DNA from: Oehlia diaphana
Lineage: Eukaryota; Glomeromycota; Glomeromycetes; Glomerales; Glomeraceae
Length of the DNA: 64,000 bases
Reading direction: 5' to 3'
NCBI GenBank assembly: GCA_003833135.1
Contig: QZLH01000378.1
Coordinates: 28,888 to 92,887 of the forward strand
Numbering within the stretch: the first letter of the stretch is position 1; every line of letters starts with the position of its first letter. The notes beneath the pieces are model-generated. The model ran no database searches. It was given only the letters and a program-made list of their open reading frames with translations, and was not told the origin of the DNA. This document shows positions 4,396 to 53,689 of the stretch, one piece after another. The position numbers were made by a program, and so were the translations under genes.

Positions 4396-4478
4396 GGGCT
4401 GCTCAATGTTTTATTAAACTATTTTTGCCTCATATACAGTTTAAAATAACAGATTCTACTTTGCAAAAATCTTCAAGA

Positions 4479-5036
4479 ATGTTTATCGTTTATGTATTAA
4501 AATGTCGTGATAATAAATATTATGTCGGTCGAACTATGGATCTCGATATAAGGATTGGTCAGCATGAAAATGGAAATACAAAGTGGACGAGAATTCATCC
4601 ATATGAAGAACTTATATGGGAAAAAAGAACAGCTAATAATGATTTAGAATTGGCGAAAACTCTTGAATATATGAAACGATATAAAATAAGAAATGTAAGA
4701 GGTAGTACTTACTCTCGGCCGTCTTTGTCGAATGACGAACTTGATAATATTAGATATCAATTGAAACATAGATGTTTTAGCTGCGGTAGATTTGGTCATT
4801 TTATAAATGAATGTAGATGTGACATATGTGGTGAATACGATCATTTGAGTTATCAATGTCGCAATTGTTATAAATGTGGGGGAAGACCTGATCATAATTT
4901 TGAAAGTTGTAATAGATGTTACAAATGCAAAAGACCCGGTCATAATTATAGTGAGTGCGATAGGTGCTACAATTGTTTTGATCGCGGCCATTTCATAAGA
5001 GACTGTCAGATGGAAATCAGTTATGGCTATAATTGA
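4479..5036 (+). CDS. GIY-YIG nuclease domain fused to five CCHC zinc knuckles (second copy)
   Basis: 185 residues from the ATG at 4,479, which aligns with the start of the upstream copy. An in-frame extension upstream begins only at a TTG and is rejected. It keeps the GIY-YIG signature (FIVYVLKC, KYYVGRT, Arg and His in DIRIGQH, the Glu in AKTLEYM, NVRGS) and five CCHC knuckles. The knuckle region is nearly identical to copy 1 in the middle (CGEYDHLSYQC), while the linker and ends differ. Both copies are open with all key residues kept, so both may be functional. The role is unknown; nucleic-acid cleavage is inferred from the fold. Confidence 0.85.
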   Translation: MFIVYVLKCRDNKYYVGRTMDLDIRIGQHENGNTKWTRIHPYEELIWEKRTANNDLELAKTLEYMKRYKIRNVRGSTYSRPSLSNDELDNIRYQLKHRCFSCGRFGHFINECRCDICGEYDHLSYQCRNCYKCGGRPDHNFESCNRCYKCKRPGHNYSECDRCYNCFDRGHFIRDCQMEISYGYN

Positions 5037-23012: not shown

Positions 23013-23726
23013 ATGAATCCATACGAGACTTCATCATTTCAATCTCCAATGATACCGGAATCTAGAATAGTTGAAGAAGTCATATCGGAGATGGACCCAC
23101 TAACTTACGCTAAAATTTTACAAAAAATAACCATGCCAATAGAATATTTGATAAGTCCCAAGAGGAAATCTCGTAAAGGAAATACTCCTCCAAGGCCACA
23201 AAACTCTTTTCTCATTTACCGTCGGGACTTTATGTCAAAGTTAACTACAAATTATGGTCCTGAAATTTCTTCAAATTTATCTTATGTTTCAAGTAATGCT
23301 GGAAAGTGGTGGAGTTCTGAGTCTCAAGAGGTTAAGAATATTTATAAATTAATCGCTGATTTAGCGAAAAAAGTTCACGAACGAACTTATCCTGGTTATG
23401 TATTCAAACCTAAAAAAAAGCGATCTCACAAACCTATTCTCAATCATGATTTTGATGACGACTTTCTCTTTGCTTCAAATACTTTTAATTATCAAGATGT
23501 ACAAAGAAAATTTGTTCCACAATTATTTAATTATCATCATCCTGGATTTTCTTCAATTTCTACTATTTCTACTACGAGTGGGTCTAATTCACCTACTTCA
23601 CAAATATACTCTTCTTATAATAGTAATAATTCTTCCTCCCAATTAGTTTTACCTTCCATCGATGCTATTTTATCAGAATCTGATAATTACGATAGATTTA
23701 TGTGTCGTTCTTTCCAAGGTCCATAA
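23013..23726 (+). CDS. HMG-box (MATA-HMG-like) transcription factor
   Basis: Intronless, 237 residues, ATG at 23,013. Residues about 58-133 form an HMG box: PPRPQNSFLIYRRDF at the start, then SSNAGKWWSSESQEVKN (Trp99-Trp100) and HERTYPGYVFKPKKK. This matches the MATA_HMG type found in fungal mating-type proteins. The box is preceded by a basic patch (SPKRKSRKG) and followed by one (KPKKKRSHK), likely nuclear localisation signals. The C-terminal third is Ser/Asn-rich and probably disordered. Expected role: sequence-specific DNA binding in the nucleus. R. irregularis has a greatly expanded MATA-HMG family, so this need not be a mating-type gene. No lesion seen. Confidence 0.92.
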   Translation: MNPYETSSFQSPMIPESRIVEEVISEMDPLTYAKILQKITMPIEYLISPKRKSRKGNTPPRPQNSFLIYRRDFMSKLTTNYGPEISSNLSYVSSNAGKWWSSESQEVKNIYKLIADLAKKVHERTYPGYVFKPKKKRSHKPILNHDFDDDFLFASNTFNYQDVQRKFVPQLFNYHHPGFSSISTISTTSGSNSPTSQIYSSYNSNNSSSQLVLPSIDAILSESDNYDRFMCRSFQGP

Positions 23727-30800: not shown

Positions 30801-31538
30801 CAAAGACATTTAGGATTCATTTAATTCATTTTTAACATACATAACATACATGCATGATTGCAATTCTATTAATCTATTTTAGGCGGTAAAAAAAATTAAT
30901 GAAATTATTATATATTACATATACTGTATTACTATATTAGTACAATAAATACGAGCATAACAATTGCCCAGAAAATTCTTTTCATTGATTGGTGATTGAG
31001 TTGGTCAAAAACTAGTTAATTATCAAATATGGTAGTATTTATTCAGTCAGTATATAAAATATATTATATATTATGTATGATTTATATATATATATATCAT
31101 ATATGTATGTACAAATGATTCCCTTCAATCCTTCAATTATAATTTTATTTCTATTTAGAAAATCCGTAAAACTTAAATAAACTAGTTGGTGATGGTTATA
31201 TATTTGAAATAACTTTCCTTTGATAAGATGTTGTTACACATTCACTCCTGCGGCTCGGTTATATTTCAAAGCTTCAAAAATGCGATGGGATAGTAAATAG
31301 AAAAAATTATTAACCATTATGCGTCAACTTTTTCATCTTTTTTTTTTTTTTTTTTTATATATATATACATTCCTGTGCCCCTAATTATGTTCACTCTTTT
31401 TAGGAGCTCAAATTGTGTCAGAGAATTTGAGAATTTACGGTGGTTATTTTTTTTTTAACAAAAACTTTTTTTAAGGTAATTAGTTTTATATTAGCATTAA
31501 AAGATAAAAATTTCGCTATTACGTATAAATATTTAAAT
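30801..31538. other. Intergenic upstream of kinase-like copy A
   Basis: A/T-rich with (ta)n near 31,060-31,100 and a T-run near 31,338-31,356. No gene seen. It should include the former promoter of the kinase-like pseudogene. Confidence 0.55.
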
Positions 31539-32983
31539 ATGTCAACTTTTAGTCCACTTTTCAATTTAACAATGGAAGAAGATTATTGTCAAGAAAATAA
31601 ATTTATTCCAAGAGAACTTGAAATCTGTCCAGAATGTGGTAAACCTAGAATCTCTTGCAGATGGTGTAAAGATTGTGAAACAAATTCCATGAAGGAAAAC
31701 TTTCTTTATTGGACATCTGAGAATAAAGAGATTGATGAATTAATCCGTCATACTCAACTTAATGCCTCTCAAACTTGCGATTATTTGGAGTGGATCCCGT
31801 TCGAAAAATTTGATTTTGTAAAAAACATTGGTAGCGGTGGTGGATTTAGTAGTATTTATTCAGCAGTTTGGATGGAAGGGCCAAGATGGGTTTGGGCTGA
31901 TGATTTACAAGAATGGACTAGAGCCGGTCTGACAAACGTTGCTTTGAAACGTCTTGATAATTCACAGAATATTACAAGTTCTTACATTGATTAGGTAATT
32001 AATCATGTTAAATACGGTGGTATACCGGTTGCTATTACCGGTTGCTATTTTATTTTTTCATGAAAAAGAACATATAAATATCAAAGATTTTTATATATGG
32101 TAGTCGCTTCTTAAATCCTATCTGTAGAAAGTACAACGCCTCTTAAATTATACGATATTCATTGCATTTATTTTTAATTTTAGATTAAAGCATATCACAA
32201 GTGTTTACAATCGGTTTTATTGGCAGACACATTTGGAATTACGAAAGATTCAACATCTAATTATATGATTGTTATGAAATACTACAAAAACGGCAACTTG
32301 TATCAATACCTTGATCGTTCCAATGGAATCCTTTCTTGGATTAATATAATCGATATATTATGGGGAATCGCTAGAGGGCTTGAAAAGATTCATGCTGAAG
32401 GAAAAGTTCATAGAAACCTTCATGGAGGAAATTTACTTGTTGATGAAAAATTTTTGATAGGTACTCGTATTGCTGATGTGGGTCTTCATGGTCCATGTTA
32501 TTACCATGAAAATAAAAACATATATGGGGTTTTACCATATATTGCGCCAGAAGTTTACGTGGTGAAGATTATAATACTGCTTCTGATATATATTCATTTG
32601 GTATTATCATGAATACATTTTCAAATGGAAAAAGACCTTGGTATAATAGAGCTCATGATATTAATTTAGCGAAAAGCATTTGTGATGATGAAAGGCTTGA
32701 AATTCCAGAGGATACACCAAAATTTTATGCAGAATTAATGCAACAATGTTGGGACAATGATCCGGAAAAACGTCCAACTGCTTCTTACTTGAATGAAAAA
32801 TTAGGAGAATGGATCGCATTAGTTTGTAATAATCAAAATCCTTCAAAAATTTTTGATGAATATTCTATTGCTGAAAATAGGAGACAAATAATAATTTCTC
32901 AATTACCTAAAAAAAATACTCATCCAGAGATACATCCAGAAGCGTATTACACAAGTAGACATTTGTGCTTTTTGGATTCTTAG
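31539..32983 (+). pseudogene. Kinase-like gene, copy A, inactivated
   Basis: Exon 1 (ATG at 31,539, or 31,572 by alignment with copy B) encodes the N-terminal CPECGKPR...WCKDCE module, then the start of a kinase fold (KNIGSGGGFSSIYSAVW, with an extra Gly, and VALKRLDNSQ). The last codon before the intron donor is TAG (31,992-31,994) where copy B has CAG, a nonsense change. Exon 2 starts at 32,184 and reads well up to the APE motif. There, loss of one T near 32,557 shifts the frame, and the remainder (SFGIIMNTFSNGKRPW, CWDNDPEKRPTAS) resumes in the next frame to the stop at 32,983. The catalytic-loop sequence is VHRNLHGGNLL, with Asn in place of the HRD Asp, as in copy B. Confidence 0.88.
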
Positions 32984-36290: not shown

Positions 36291-36352
36291 GACCAGATGT
36301 AAAACCTAGACATCACCAGAAATAATGGGCGTTTTTACTAATAAAACTGCAA
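36291..36352. repeat. Direct repeat left of assembly gap
   Basis: A roughly 61-bp sequence starting gaccagatgtaaaacctaga recurs at 36,954-37,014 with about four differences. The gap between the copies is probably a tandem array that the assembler could not resolve. Confidence 0.85.
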
Positions 36353-36936
36353 NNNNNNNNNNNNNNNNNNNNNNNNNNNNNNNNNNNNNNNNNNNNNNNN
36401 NNNNNNNNNNNNNNNNNNNNNNNNNNNNNNNNNNNNNNNNNNNNNNNNNNNNNNNNNNNNNNNNNNNNNNNNNNNNNNNNNNNNNNNNNNNNNNNNNNNN
36501 NNNNNNNNNNNNNNNNNNNNNNNNNNNNNNNNNNNNNNNNNNNNNNNNNNNNNNNNNNNNNNNNNNNNNNNNNNNNNNNNNNNNNNNNNNNNNNNNNNNN
36601 NNNNNNNNNNNNNNNNNNNNNNNNNNNNNNNNNNNNNNNNNNNNNNNNNNNNNNNNNNNNNNNNNNNNNNNNNNNNNNNNNNNNNNNNNNNNNNNNNNNN
36701 NNNNNNNNNNNNNNNNNNNNNNNNNNNNNNNNNNNNNNNNNNNNNNNNNNNNNNNNNNNNNNNNNNNNNNNNNNNNNNNNNNNNNNNNNNNNNNNNNNNN
36801 NNNNNNNNNNNNNNNNNNNNNNNNNNNNNNNNNNNNNNNNNNNNNNNNNNNNNNNNNNNNNNNNNNNNNNNNNNNNNNNNNNNNNNNNNNNNNNNNNNNN
36901 NNNNNNNNNNNNNNNNNNNNNNNNNNNNNNNNNNNN
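36353..36936. other. Assembly gap (584 N)
   Basis: A run of N. Any reading frame crossing it is meaningless. The flanking direct repeats indicate unresolved repeats. Confidence 1.
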
Positions 36937-36953
36937 ACCTCGTTACGCGTGAC

Positions 36954-37014
36954 GACCAGATGTAAAACCTAGACATCGTCAGGAAATGGGCGTTTTTACT
37001 AATAAAACTGCAAA
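36954..37014. repeat. Direct repeat right of assembly gap
   Basis: Second copy of the 36,291-36,352 repeat, in the same orientation. Confidence 0.85.
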
Positions 37015-37036
37015 ACAAACTCTTTTTGTACGAGAG

Positions 37037-39890: not shown

Positions 39891-40230
39891 AATACAAAGT
39901 TTAAAACGTGGCAAAAATTTTCATTTTAACATGTCGAAATACTGAAAAACGTGACAAAAATTCTTCTATACACGCACATAATTCACTCACCCTCATTCTC
40001 ACATTATTAATTTAAAGTGGCTTTGCTTTTCAACGCTAAAATTTTAACGTGGCGCAATACAGAAAACGTGGCAAAAATACTTTTATACATATCCTTTACT
40101 TCACCGGTTCACCTCATTTTTCACTTATTATTTAAAGTGGCTTTGCTCTTCAACAGTAAATTTCAACATGGCGCAATACAGAAAAACGTGGCAAAAATAC
40201 TCTTGTACACCTCATCATTTATAATAATAT
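39891..40230. repeat. About 120-bp tandem repeat, nearly three units
   Basis: The words taaagtggctttgct and gcgcaatacagaaaa...cgtggcaaaaatac recur exactly 120 bp apart (about 40,012 and 40,132), and a more diverged unit precedes them (from about 39,891, with gtcgaaatactgaaaaacgt). The array ends about 150 bp upstream of the small peptide gene and may belong to its promoter. Confidence 0.8.
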
Positions 40231-40284
40231 GAAAAATATAATTTTAAAGTACTTTTAAAATACGTACTATTAGAAAAATTTTCT

Positions 40285-40291
40285 TATATAA
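40285..40291 (+). promoter_or_regulatory. Candidate TATA element of the peptide gene
   Basis: tatataa lies 90 bp before the ATG at 40,381, between the tandem repeat array and the coding start. In such A/T-rich DNA this word is common, so the call rests mainly on position. Confidence 0.3.
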
Positions 40292-40380
40292 CCACTGAGA
40301 AAGAGAAGAAAAAAATTTTTCCAAAAAAAATTAACGAACAACTGAAAAATTAAAAATTATAAATAACACACTAATAAATC

Positions 40381-40616
40381 ATGCGATTAACACATTTATT
40401 GTTGATTTTCGCCTTTACTATTGCTTTAGCGAGTAAATAATCATATTTAAAAAAAATTTTTCTCTTTTTATTAATATTAATTATTAAATGAATTTTTAAC
40501 AATAATTTATAATTTGATTCGTTACTGACATAGATGCAGCACCTGGTTATGATAAACGTGATGCAGACGCAGAAGCATTGAATGATAAACGCTGGAGCCC
40601 GCTCATTCCGATTTAA
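40381..40616 (+). CDS. Kex2-processed secreted peptide precursor (pheromone-like)
   Basis: Two exons, 40,381-40,432 and 40,534-40,616, with a GT...AG intron of 101 bp and matching phase, giving 44 residues. Residues 1-17 (MRLTHLLLIFAFTIALA) are a textbook signal peptide. The rest holds two dibasic sites, each preceded by Asp (DKR, ending at residues 26 and 37), a DADAEA spacer right after the first site, and the C-terminal heptapeptide WSPLIPI after the second. Yeast alpha-factor precursors have the same layout: signal, Lys-Arg cut by Kex2, acidic-residue/Ala dipeptides trimmed by a Ste13-type peptidase, mature peptide. Only one mature copy is present. Function (mating, self-signalling or symbiosis signal) is inferred from architecture. 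Both exons are too short to be found by frame length. Confidence 0.8.
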
Positions 40617-41939
40617 AACTAATTTGTGTGTTTAAAATATGTAAATTTAAGTAATATTGTAGTAATCATACTTAATTTAGAGATTTTTTTTTAAAAAAAA
40701 TTTATTCATTTCAAAGTTGCCACTAGTATTAGTAAACACTACAATAAAAAAGCTTACTGGGATAAACTCTTACAATAGGAAATTAATTTGTAAAAACCAA
40801 TAAATTACCTATTATCGATCGTGTCTTTTGGCTGTAAAATATATAATGAAATTAAATGAGCCAGAAATATCAAGTCGCTAGATGAAAAAGTGTTAACTGG
40901 ATTAGTTAGCCGTGTACGCAAAATATCCCATTGCCCATGATATAAATGTCCACTTACTCGACTAGTCCTGTAATTGCAGTTTTCTTCACGTATTAATAGA
41001 CCCATCCTTTAATAATTATAATATTTTTTTTATCGGTAACTGTATATATTTCGAACCTGATGCAATGATAAAACAAATTTTTTATTTTTATTTTTAAATT
41101 CCATGTGAACAAAGCCACGATCGAGATTACAAGTAAGAACTACACGTAAGCCAGAAGCAATCTACACTAAAATTGTGAGCCAAATGCCATAAGACAGCGC
41201 CACCCTCCTAGGAGCGCCCCGCCCATAACACACTAGAGAAAAAAAAGGCTAGGGAATAAAAATAAAACGCAATCTATAAAAGACCTGTATTTTGCTTCAT
41301 CTCGAAAGTTGCCACCTGTCAATACTATTAGAGATGGATTGATTTATACTATTTTAAATTGTTTGAATGTCAATGTGGTAGTAAAGAAGACTACAAGTAT
41401 GTTATAAATGACTCATTAAATGTGATAAAAAAAAAGAACTAATTCTAATACGGTTTCGACGGTCCGGCGGCAGGCAAGTTATGTAGGGAAACTGGTGACG
41501 GACGCGTCTTCTTTGGTAGTATTCGTGATATGGAAGGGAGTAAGGTTAGTGTTAGTTTCGGAAATCCGTTTGTTGGGTCTTGATTCGAGCGCTTTCGAGT
41601 CATCAGACGTATCGGAATGATCCTTATAATAAATTCATGACGTCTAAGGTGCTACGTCAAAATAATCTAATTTAATGTAGCAATTTCTTTTTCTAATTAT
41701 TCAAGTTTTGAACCTTGTTTCGAAATTTTTTACGCCTAATTTCAAAGGTTTTCATTCGATCATGGTAACGTGTTAGATATAGTCATATAGACTGAGATCA
41801 TCTGTAAAGAGGCTCAGGCGTTAGAGTTTTTTAACACTCGTACCGTGAAATGAGGCTCTTTCTTTGAGTATTTGCTCATTTTTCAATTGTTGATTCCTGT
41901 TGTCAATTGCCCGCACTTTGTCCTTTTTCAGATTTGATA
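40617..41939. other. Intergenic, with G+C-richer relic
   Basis: No gene is supported. Around 41,100-41,330 and 41,450-41,600 the sequence is richer in G+C and resembles noncoding parts of a retroelement. It leads into the minus-strand relic that follows. Confidence 0.45.
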
Positions 41940-52205: not shown

Positions 52206-53689
52206 ATGGAAGAGGACAGTTATCAAGGACATAAGTTTATTCCGAAAGAGTTAAAGAACTGTCCCGAATGCGGGAAACCTAGAATATCTTTCGGATGGTG
52301 CAAGGATTGTGAAACTAATTCCATGAAGGAAAACTTTCTTTATTGGACTTCTGAGAATAAAGAGATTGATGAATTAATTCGGCATACTCAACTTAATGCA
52401 TCTCAAACTTGCGATTATTTGGAGTGGATCCCGTTCGAGAAATTTGAAATGGTAAAATACATTGGTAGTGGTGGATTTGGTAGTGTTTACTCAGCACTTT
52501 GGATGGAAGGACCAAGATGGAATTGGGATGATGGTGCGCAAGAGTGGGCTCGAGCTGGCCCTATGACTGTTGCTTTGAAACGTCTTGATAATTCACAGAA
52601 AATTTCGAGCTCTTTCATCAATCAGGTAATGATAATAATAATATTATTAAGCACTTTTTCGGTAAAATTATTTTCCGATCTTTAGTAACGTTTTATCTCA
52701 TCTACAATCTATTGCATCTATGAAGATTTAAAGTTGTACTAGTTGTACTAATAATTTTTTGCATAATGGTGATAATCATTTATTTATAGATTAAAACGTA
52801 TCACAAATGCTTGCAATCGGCATCGTTAGCTGAGACATTTGGAATTACAAAAGATCCAACATCTAATTATATGATAGTTATGAAATATTACGAAAATGGT
52901 AACTTATATCAATATCTAGACCGTTCTAATGGAATTCTTTCTTGGAGGGATATGATTGATATGTTGTGGGGAATAGCTGGAGGTCTTGAAAGAATCCATG
53001 CTGAAGGTAAAGTTCATAAGAATCTTCACGGAGGAAATTTACTTATTGAGGACGAAAAAATTTCAACTGACGCACGTATTGGAGATGTGGGCCTTTATGG
53101 ACCAAGCTATAATATTAATAATATTAAAAATGAAAATCCCAATCAAATTTATGGGGTTTTGCCATACGTTGCACCGGAAGTTTTACGTGGTAAGAATTAC
53201 AGTACCGCTTCCGACATATTTTCATTCGGTATTATCATGAATACTCTTGCAACTGGGCAAAGACCTTGGTATAATAGAGCACACGACTATAATTTGGCAA
53301 ATGATATATGTAACGGTTTAAGACCTGCAATCCCAGATGATACACCAAAATTTTATGCAGATTTAATGGAACAATGTTGGAATGATGAACCAGAAAAACG
53401 ACCGACTGCTTCTTATTTAAATGAAAAATTAGGCGAGTGGATTACTTTAATTTGTGACGATCCGAGTCCTTCTCAAATTTCAGATGAAAGTTCTATTGCC
53501 GAAGAGAAAAGGTGGAAGATGATTTCACAATCGTCTAAAAAATATAGTCATCCAGAGAAGCATCCCGATGCATACTATACAAGTAGGCCTTTGTGGTTTC
53601 ATGGATTGTCAAGTAATATGACGAAATGCCATTCCAATTACAGTGGTAAGGTTTCTCTTTTTGACGAGTTTCGCATGATCAGAAGTTAA
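52206..53689 (+). CDS. Kinase-like protein, copy B (predicted pseudokinase)
   Basis: Two exons, 52,206-52,625 and 52,790-53,689, GT...AG intron of 164 bp, 439 residues. The N-terminus has a CPEC...CKDC four-Cys module (residues 19-35), probably zinc-binding. The kinase fold follows: glycine loop IGSGGFGSVY (about 86-95), the lysine of VALK (Lys125), catalytic loop VHKNLHGGNLL (215-225), metal-loop IGDVG (Asp239), APE (268-270), and the C-lobe (DIFSFGIIMNTL; CWNDEPEKRPTASYL). The HRD Asp is Asn218, while Asn223 and Asp239 are kept, so phosphotransfer is probably lost or very weak; the role may be scaffold-like. This is inferred. The four-Cys-kinase layout is common in Rhizophagus. Copy A at 31.5 kb has the same Asn. 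Confidence 0.92.

Follow-up and report, generated by a model that had tools for sequence, protein, structure and literature searches.

A two-exon mini-gene of Oehlia diaphana is a probable short member of a Rhizophagus family of Kex2/Ste13-type secreted-peptide precursors with hypervariable cores

In a stretch of 64,000 nucleotides of Oehlia diaphana DNA (hereafter the window), a tiny gene, which is real, encodes a precursor of 44 residues ending in the heptapeptide WSPLIPI. Judged by its sequence and by that of its relatives, it is probably a short member, with a hypervariable core, of a large and fast-changing Rhizophagus family of Kex2/Ste13-type precursors of secreted peptides, and it is likely to work like an alpha-factor precursor. 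Because the layout is alpha-factor-like but the peptides at the end are very different among relatives, the product would probably be a diversified signal or effector. A function as an alpha-pheromone is not supported, and several defining features of such precursors are absent. The gene, read by joining its two exons from the window sequence, is composed as follows.

40282..40291, forward strand: TATA-like stretch TCTTATATAA, lying some 90 bases ahead of the start codon and conserved across the aligned family members
40381..40432, forward strand: exon 1, 52 nt, encoding the signal-peptide-like MRLTHLLLIFAFTIALA and base 1 of codon 18
40433..40533, forward strand: intron of 101 bp, GT-AG, phase 1, running from GTAAATAATC to GACATAG (GTAAAT...CATAG)
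40534..40616, forward strand: exon 2, encoding (N)AAPGYDKRDADAEALNDKRWSPLIPI and the stop
40554..40559, forward strand: first Lys-Arg (Kex2-type) site, aligned with relatives
40560..40577, forward strand: DADAEA, three Ste13-type x-Ala dipeptides, seen in the window sequence and by codon-motif search
40587..40592, forward strand: second Lys-Arg site, followed by Trp-Ser and not by x-Ala or x-Pro
40593..40613, forward strand: C-terminal heptapeptide WSPLIPI, predicted to be released as the product, not conserved

The full product is MRLTHLLLIFAFTIALANAAPGYDKRDADAEALNDKRWSPLIPI, and the two-exon reading put forward in the original prediction is correct in its coordinates and its translation. The parts of the precursor had also been read correctly there, except that NAAPGY, the segment linking the hydrophobic start to the first DKR, was missing. 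On inspection, the start is strongly hydrophobic and shows A-N-A ahead of A-P. The DADAEA stretch precedes LND, not WSPLIPI, and no core is repeated, the precursor holding a single core of 7 residues. The TATA-like stretch may be a TATA box. The exon-2 peptide, used as a query, had the window as its sole match, and Rfam gave no match in the window at gathering scores.

The assertion that chance is an unlikely source of this arrangement was borne out by shuffling and by the existence of a homologous family. The window, with N bases removed, was scanned for an ATG with a hydrophobic start, a GT-AG intron, at least two KR sites and KR[DE]A[DE]A. Exactly one match was obtained, the gene described here, and none of 100 dinucleotide-shuffled windows contained such a layout. 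Likewise, the window contains AARMGNGAYGCNGA a single time and none of 100 shuffles contains this motif, while the looser criterion of two KR alone was satisfied by 3 of the 100. The frame is very short, as a chance artefact would be, but homologues with the same exon structure form a family and the layout is missing from every shuffle; a chance origin was rejected on the shuffle tests, and we consider it extremely improbable.

The search of the same genome (108.8 Mb) gave a total of at least 37 family loci, genes or remnants (22 + 2 + 12 + 1), 16 of which could be modelled as intact; the grouping into neighbourhoods and the verdict of remnant were made by eye, without a null. A DNA query covering 40300-40620 gave at least 27 matches, which fall into 22 neighbourhoods including the window, and a second DNA query added C668 and C140 among the matches listed. 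The upstream module described below led to 12 further family loci and a motif search to one more, C52. The codon motif KR-DA-xA-xA was matched 20 times in the genome and never in the reversed control; of the 20, 19 lie at known family loci, and the remaining one is a family-like exon 2 on C52, partly masked by N bases.

The intact models comprise the window gene, two genes at C93, and those at C50, C637, C950, C964, C478, C235, C821, C426, C420, C140, C40, C469 and C1397, whereas C668, read by hand, stands outside this set. Exon 1 measures 52 nt in 15 of the 16 models (55 nt in C1397), and the introns, of 64-111 bp, are all in phase 1 and share their position, which backs the splice model originally proposed. 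The window gene thus shows the leader exon of about 52 nt, the phase-1 intron and the KR sites by which the family is recognized. The spliced model at C426 equals the annotated R. diaphanus protein P0010 in 50/50 residues, an identity that would suggest R. diaphanus or a close strain as the source. In a tree of 20 rows, based on upstream DNA, exon 1 and intron, the window gene groups with three C93 copies with support of 100/99.

Other copies are seemingly broken, namely C351, C43, C280a, both C30 copies, two C426 copies, C50 near 168 kb, C89, C1501 and C861. The weakest of the remnant calls are C150 (exon 1 only), C89 (tail only), C861 and C50 near 161 and 167 kb. At C316 (L019), the intron-exon unit is apparently duplicated, leaving two candidate second exons in tandem. 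A shortened family form ending in GRGFINVK is found both at C93 near 28 kb (L004) and in R. irregularis P0028; given its presence here and in R. irregularis, it may exceed a mere broken copy.

Long members also exist. The paralogues at C50 (L006, 231 residues) and C950 (L008, 181 residues) carry many YGYKRDAEPEA-type repeats, predicted to free the tripeptide YGY, and C164 (L082), reached via the upstream module, has a longer frame with YGYKRDAEAEA repeats and a run of EEKRQ repeats. The C50 gene (L006/L029) is preceded, at a distance of approximately 400-500 bases, by a dispersed stretch with copies on many other contigs; the first 133 query bases alone, which correspond to this stretch, account for 21 of the at least 57 matches of the second query.

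Many family members have a stretch of upstream DNA in common, here called the module, which is present in the window in two copies.

40118..40213, forward strand: upstream module common to many family members
~39923-40089, forward strand: weaker second copy of the module, just upstream of the first

A query covering 40010-40225 gave at least 38 matches in the genome, which were grouped by eye into 32 neighbourhoods, and a family gene or remnant adjoins 28 of the 32 among the matches listed. When 16 of these neighbourhoods were fetched blind to their downstream content, 12 held a family gene or remnant. At the module sites C47, C124, C50 at ~158.9 kb and C426 at ~42.2 kb, neither was found. Conversely, the module matches listed cover 11 of the 16 intact genes, the window gene by construction of the query and 10 of the 15 others. 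Among the same matches, C50, C637, C950, C235 and C420 had none; the DNA upstream of C420 holds the exact 16-mer ACGTGGCAAAAATACT, the core of the module. The sharing of the module may reflect duplication and not function.

Relatives were also detected in other genomes, with at least 27 database proteins at E <= 1.6e-3, distributed across R. irregularis (24), R. diaphanus (1) and Glomus cerebriforme (2). An alignment of 14 rows used as the query, in which the C43 row is doubtful (splice read by hand, later out of frame) and the C668 row was read by hand, gave at least 38 proteins at E <= 10, while the window protein alone retrieved 2 proteins and a long-repeat query at least 4 at E <= 0.01, two of them from named R. 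irregularis entries. A weak match in Acaulospora colombiana (P0035, E 0.68) has the same style of KR followed by dipeptides, with YYYYY cores, and is taken as no more than a lead. Conservation of the KR sites and of the last seven residues had been proposed as a check, and its outcome was divided: relatives keep the KR sites but differ in the final heptapeptide. Among the matches listed, the closest R. irregularis relatives end in WWDLPMM and WWDFVTSTLQ, and another of the nearest relatives ends in WDPVLPWM, also unlike WSPLIPI.

What the intact members share is the leader exon, the intron position and the Lys-Arg sites, which in most cases lead into Ste13-type dipeptides, whereas the released peptides differ almost completely across the family. 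Likeness is 67% over the first 17 residues and 10% over the last eight, a crude comparison with unaligned ends made on 24 of a set of 27 proteins (the window protein and P0002-P0027), three being left out because the leader is missing at the annotated start. Within the 16 genes of the same genome, x-Ala or x-Pro follows KR in 35 of 41 unique contexts. The second KR of the window gene is one of the six exceptions, and the only one followed by an aromatic residue. The residue before KR is aromatic at 17 of 30 unique sites in these genes, against a background of 13.8%, a comparison given as plain counts with no significance computed. Under a simple trimming rule, the predicted cores often have 3-4 residues, such as YGY, QRLY, AVAF and GVGF.

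The ratio pN/pS was 0.58 for exon 1 (bootstrap 0.27-1.34; 15 genes, C1397 left out) and 0.32 for the KRxADAEA stretch in 14 of these genes (C93_36k dropped), the latter value being biased because the stretch was picked by its motif. Selection on the shared part of the family is thus weakly shown by these sequence comparisons. By eye, a Pro before Ile or Trp recurs in the cores, as in HWSPIW (P0017), VPPIW (C40), YVPIW (P0024) and WPPDW (P0025). A derivation of WSPLIPI from the tail of its sister C93_34k by deletion or frameshift was also considered, as W, P and P are in step by eye; no homology is claimed, because this offset scores 11/24 bases and two others score 12/24. A shuffle value of 6 in 1000 pertains to the top-ranked offset, which lies at the 3' end of the sister gene, and was set aside.

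Several candidate processing and receptor genes are present in the same genome. A kexin-type subtilase with a P-domain is encoded at C801, a piece of which matches the PDB entry for Kexin with an E of 2.6e-48, DPPIV-type (Ste13-type) peptidase genes are located at C285 and C229, and a search with PF02076 found a STE3-type receptor gene at C1422. The original prediction had called for such a search of the machinery. STE2 (PF02116) had no match in this genome or in the control genomes, so that the search lacked a working control and absence is not claimed; the same kind of search recovered STE3.

From these parts, we infer a path of secretion, cleavage, trimming, release and signalling. Signal peptidase would cut near the ANA-AP junction and the kexin of C801 behind every KR; this residue pair may be trimmed off by a carboxypeptidase, and the DPPIV/Ste13-type peptidase of C285 or C229 would remove DA-DA-EA, after which small peptides would be secreted. 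The terminal unit of the window precursor has no dipeptides; therefore, kexin alone would free WSPLIPI. This unit is atypical and may have drifted. Most likely, the peptides would act outside the cell, as a diversified set of signals or effectors between fungus and plant or between fungi, and family copies would presumably be gained and lost quickly.

The original prediction went further in proposing a pheromone-like role. Its alpha-factor-like, Kex2-type layout has support and is inherited across a gene family, and the order of leader, KR, Ste13-type dipeptides and short core resembles that of ascomycete alpha-factor precursors, with two KR sites that are kept in relatives. A true alpha-type mating pheromone, sent by one strain type to a GPCR of another to start fusion or mating, would also fit the STE3-type receptor gene, the presence of most of the downstream pathway in the list given by Halary 2013 for these fungi and, in the available portion of Mateus 2020, the rise of mating-like genes when isolates meet, in which no pheromone gene was seen to rise. 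The role itself finds no support, however. The family has approximately 37 loci with unlike, hypervariable cores and decayed copies, and the window core is not kept in the nearest relatives among the matches listed. It has 7 residues, compared with the 9-24 quoted for alpha-pheromones in the accessible text of PMC6339444, it is not directly preceded by dipeptides, and it is single where the cores of alpha-pheromone precursors are usually repeated, although that source notes one core per precursor in some yeasts. The lack of a STE2 match points the same way, with the limit that the control had none either. We therefore regard WSPLIPI as a mating pheromone as improbable. Only slightly less improbable is that tens of copies of one alpha-factor-like prepro-leader arose in Rhizophagus and exchanged their cores, so that the peptides, tiny and often aromatic-ended (WSPLIPI in the window copy), are private to strains and act as self/non-self or mating-type signals. 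The conotoxins and similar families, where the leader is kept while the cores are replaced, offer a comparison.

It is also conceivable, though rather unlikely, that the family is functional and the window copy a dying paralogue whose end has drifted and encodes no meaningful peptide. The C93 sister copies include a shortened one, several other loci are broken, and the terminal unit, devoid of dipeptides, has no convincing DNA kinship with the C93_34k tail. Yet the frame, the splice sites, both KR sites and the stop are intact, the layout does not occur in 100 shuffles, and an aromatic-type core following KR is also present in R. irregularis P0017 (KR-HWSPIW-KR). The repeat-bearing members, with YGY or HGY cores, call to mind dikaritin-like RiPP precursors, whose Tyr/Trp-rich cores would be cross-linked by UstYa-type oxidases, and cyclization was raised for Tyr-rich R. 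irregularis peptides by Le Marquer 2019 (PMC6339444, in its accessible text). The last unit of the window copy, however, lacks Tyr, and UstYa (PF11807, DUF3328) had no match in this genome, nor in the control genomes, so absence is not claimed; this origin appears more doubtful still than a mating pheromone. A short member of a diversified family of secreted signals or effectors remains our preferred reading of the window gene.

The alpha-factor-like layout as such is already known for these fungi. As far as the accessible text of Le Marquer 2019 (PMC6339444) goes, the KEX2-processed repeat proteins (KEPs) of R. irregularis mostly bear STE13 signatures, the deduced peptides are Tyr-rich, and the pipeline demanded at least 3 repeats. 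Like the present family, the KEPs have a signal-peptide-like start, KR sites and x-Ala or x-Pro after KR, and their repeats are also carried by the long relatives C50, C950, C235 and C164. The KEP definition, with at least three repeated motifs between KEX2 sites, does not describe the window gene, which would escape a screen of this type because it has no repeats. The leader, the intron and the upstream module, which link short and long members, are not mentioned in the accessible portion of that paper. According to the available parts of Kamel 2017 (PMC5293756), cleaved repeat proteins are expressed in roots and mycelium. The cleaved RiSP proteins of R. irregularis, SP7-like ones included, are expressed in roots or in the extraradical mycelium and, compared here by description only, are likewise secreted, KR-cut and from the same genus. 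Kex2-processed repeat proteins across fungi, including a type P-4 with Rhizophagus and Diversispora, are treated in PMC7329392 (2020), whose accessible text describes repeat-based proteins, unlike the window gene on a comparison by description only. KR sites also occur in other Glomeromycotina surface proteins in what is accessible of PMC8786786 (2022). For Halary 2013, the available text reports STE3 and no peptide pheromone gene in these fungi, with short genes possibly having escaped. Our literature search, whose coverage left out most subscription papers, found no paper treating these precursors as one family.

Little is known of how arbuscular mycorrhizal fungi signal to their hosts and among themselves. 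A fixed processing frame with freely changing cores supplies synthetic peptides that could be tested straight away, and members missed by repeat-based screens can be found in a simple way through the leader, the motif or the module. If any core were a strain-specific signal, the pheromone question in these fungi would become directly testable; the possibility of strain-private peptides, if true, concerns a fungus without observed sex.

Other features of the window were also recorded. A 237-residue open frame with an HMG box (PF00505) is located at 23013-23726 on the forward strand, 17 kb from the peptide gene. This nearness is probably due to chance, and it was set aside as a sign of a mating locus because HMG-box genes are described as numerous in these fungi. 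On the same strand, a frame at 2373-2912 has a GIY-YIG nuclease domain and a zinc knuckle, and a neighbouring frame at 4425-5036 looks like it by translation. The region at 36338-37018 contains a stretch of N bases, seen as X in translated frames. Two similar split kinase-like genes lie at 31440-32983 and 52206-53689, also on the forward strand; in a domain scan, the piece at 31440 had no family match, and the piece at 52811 matched the protein kinase domain.
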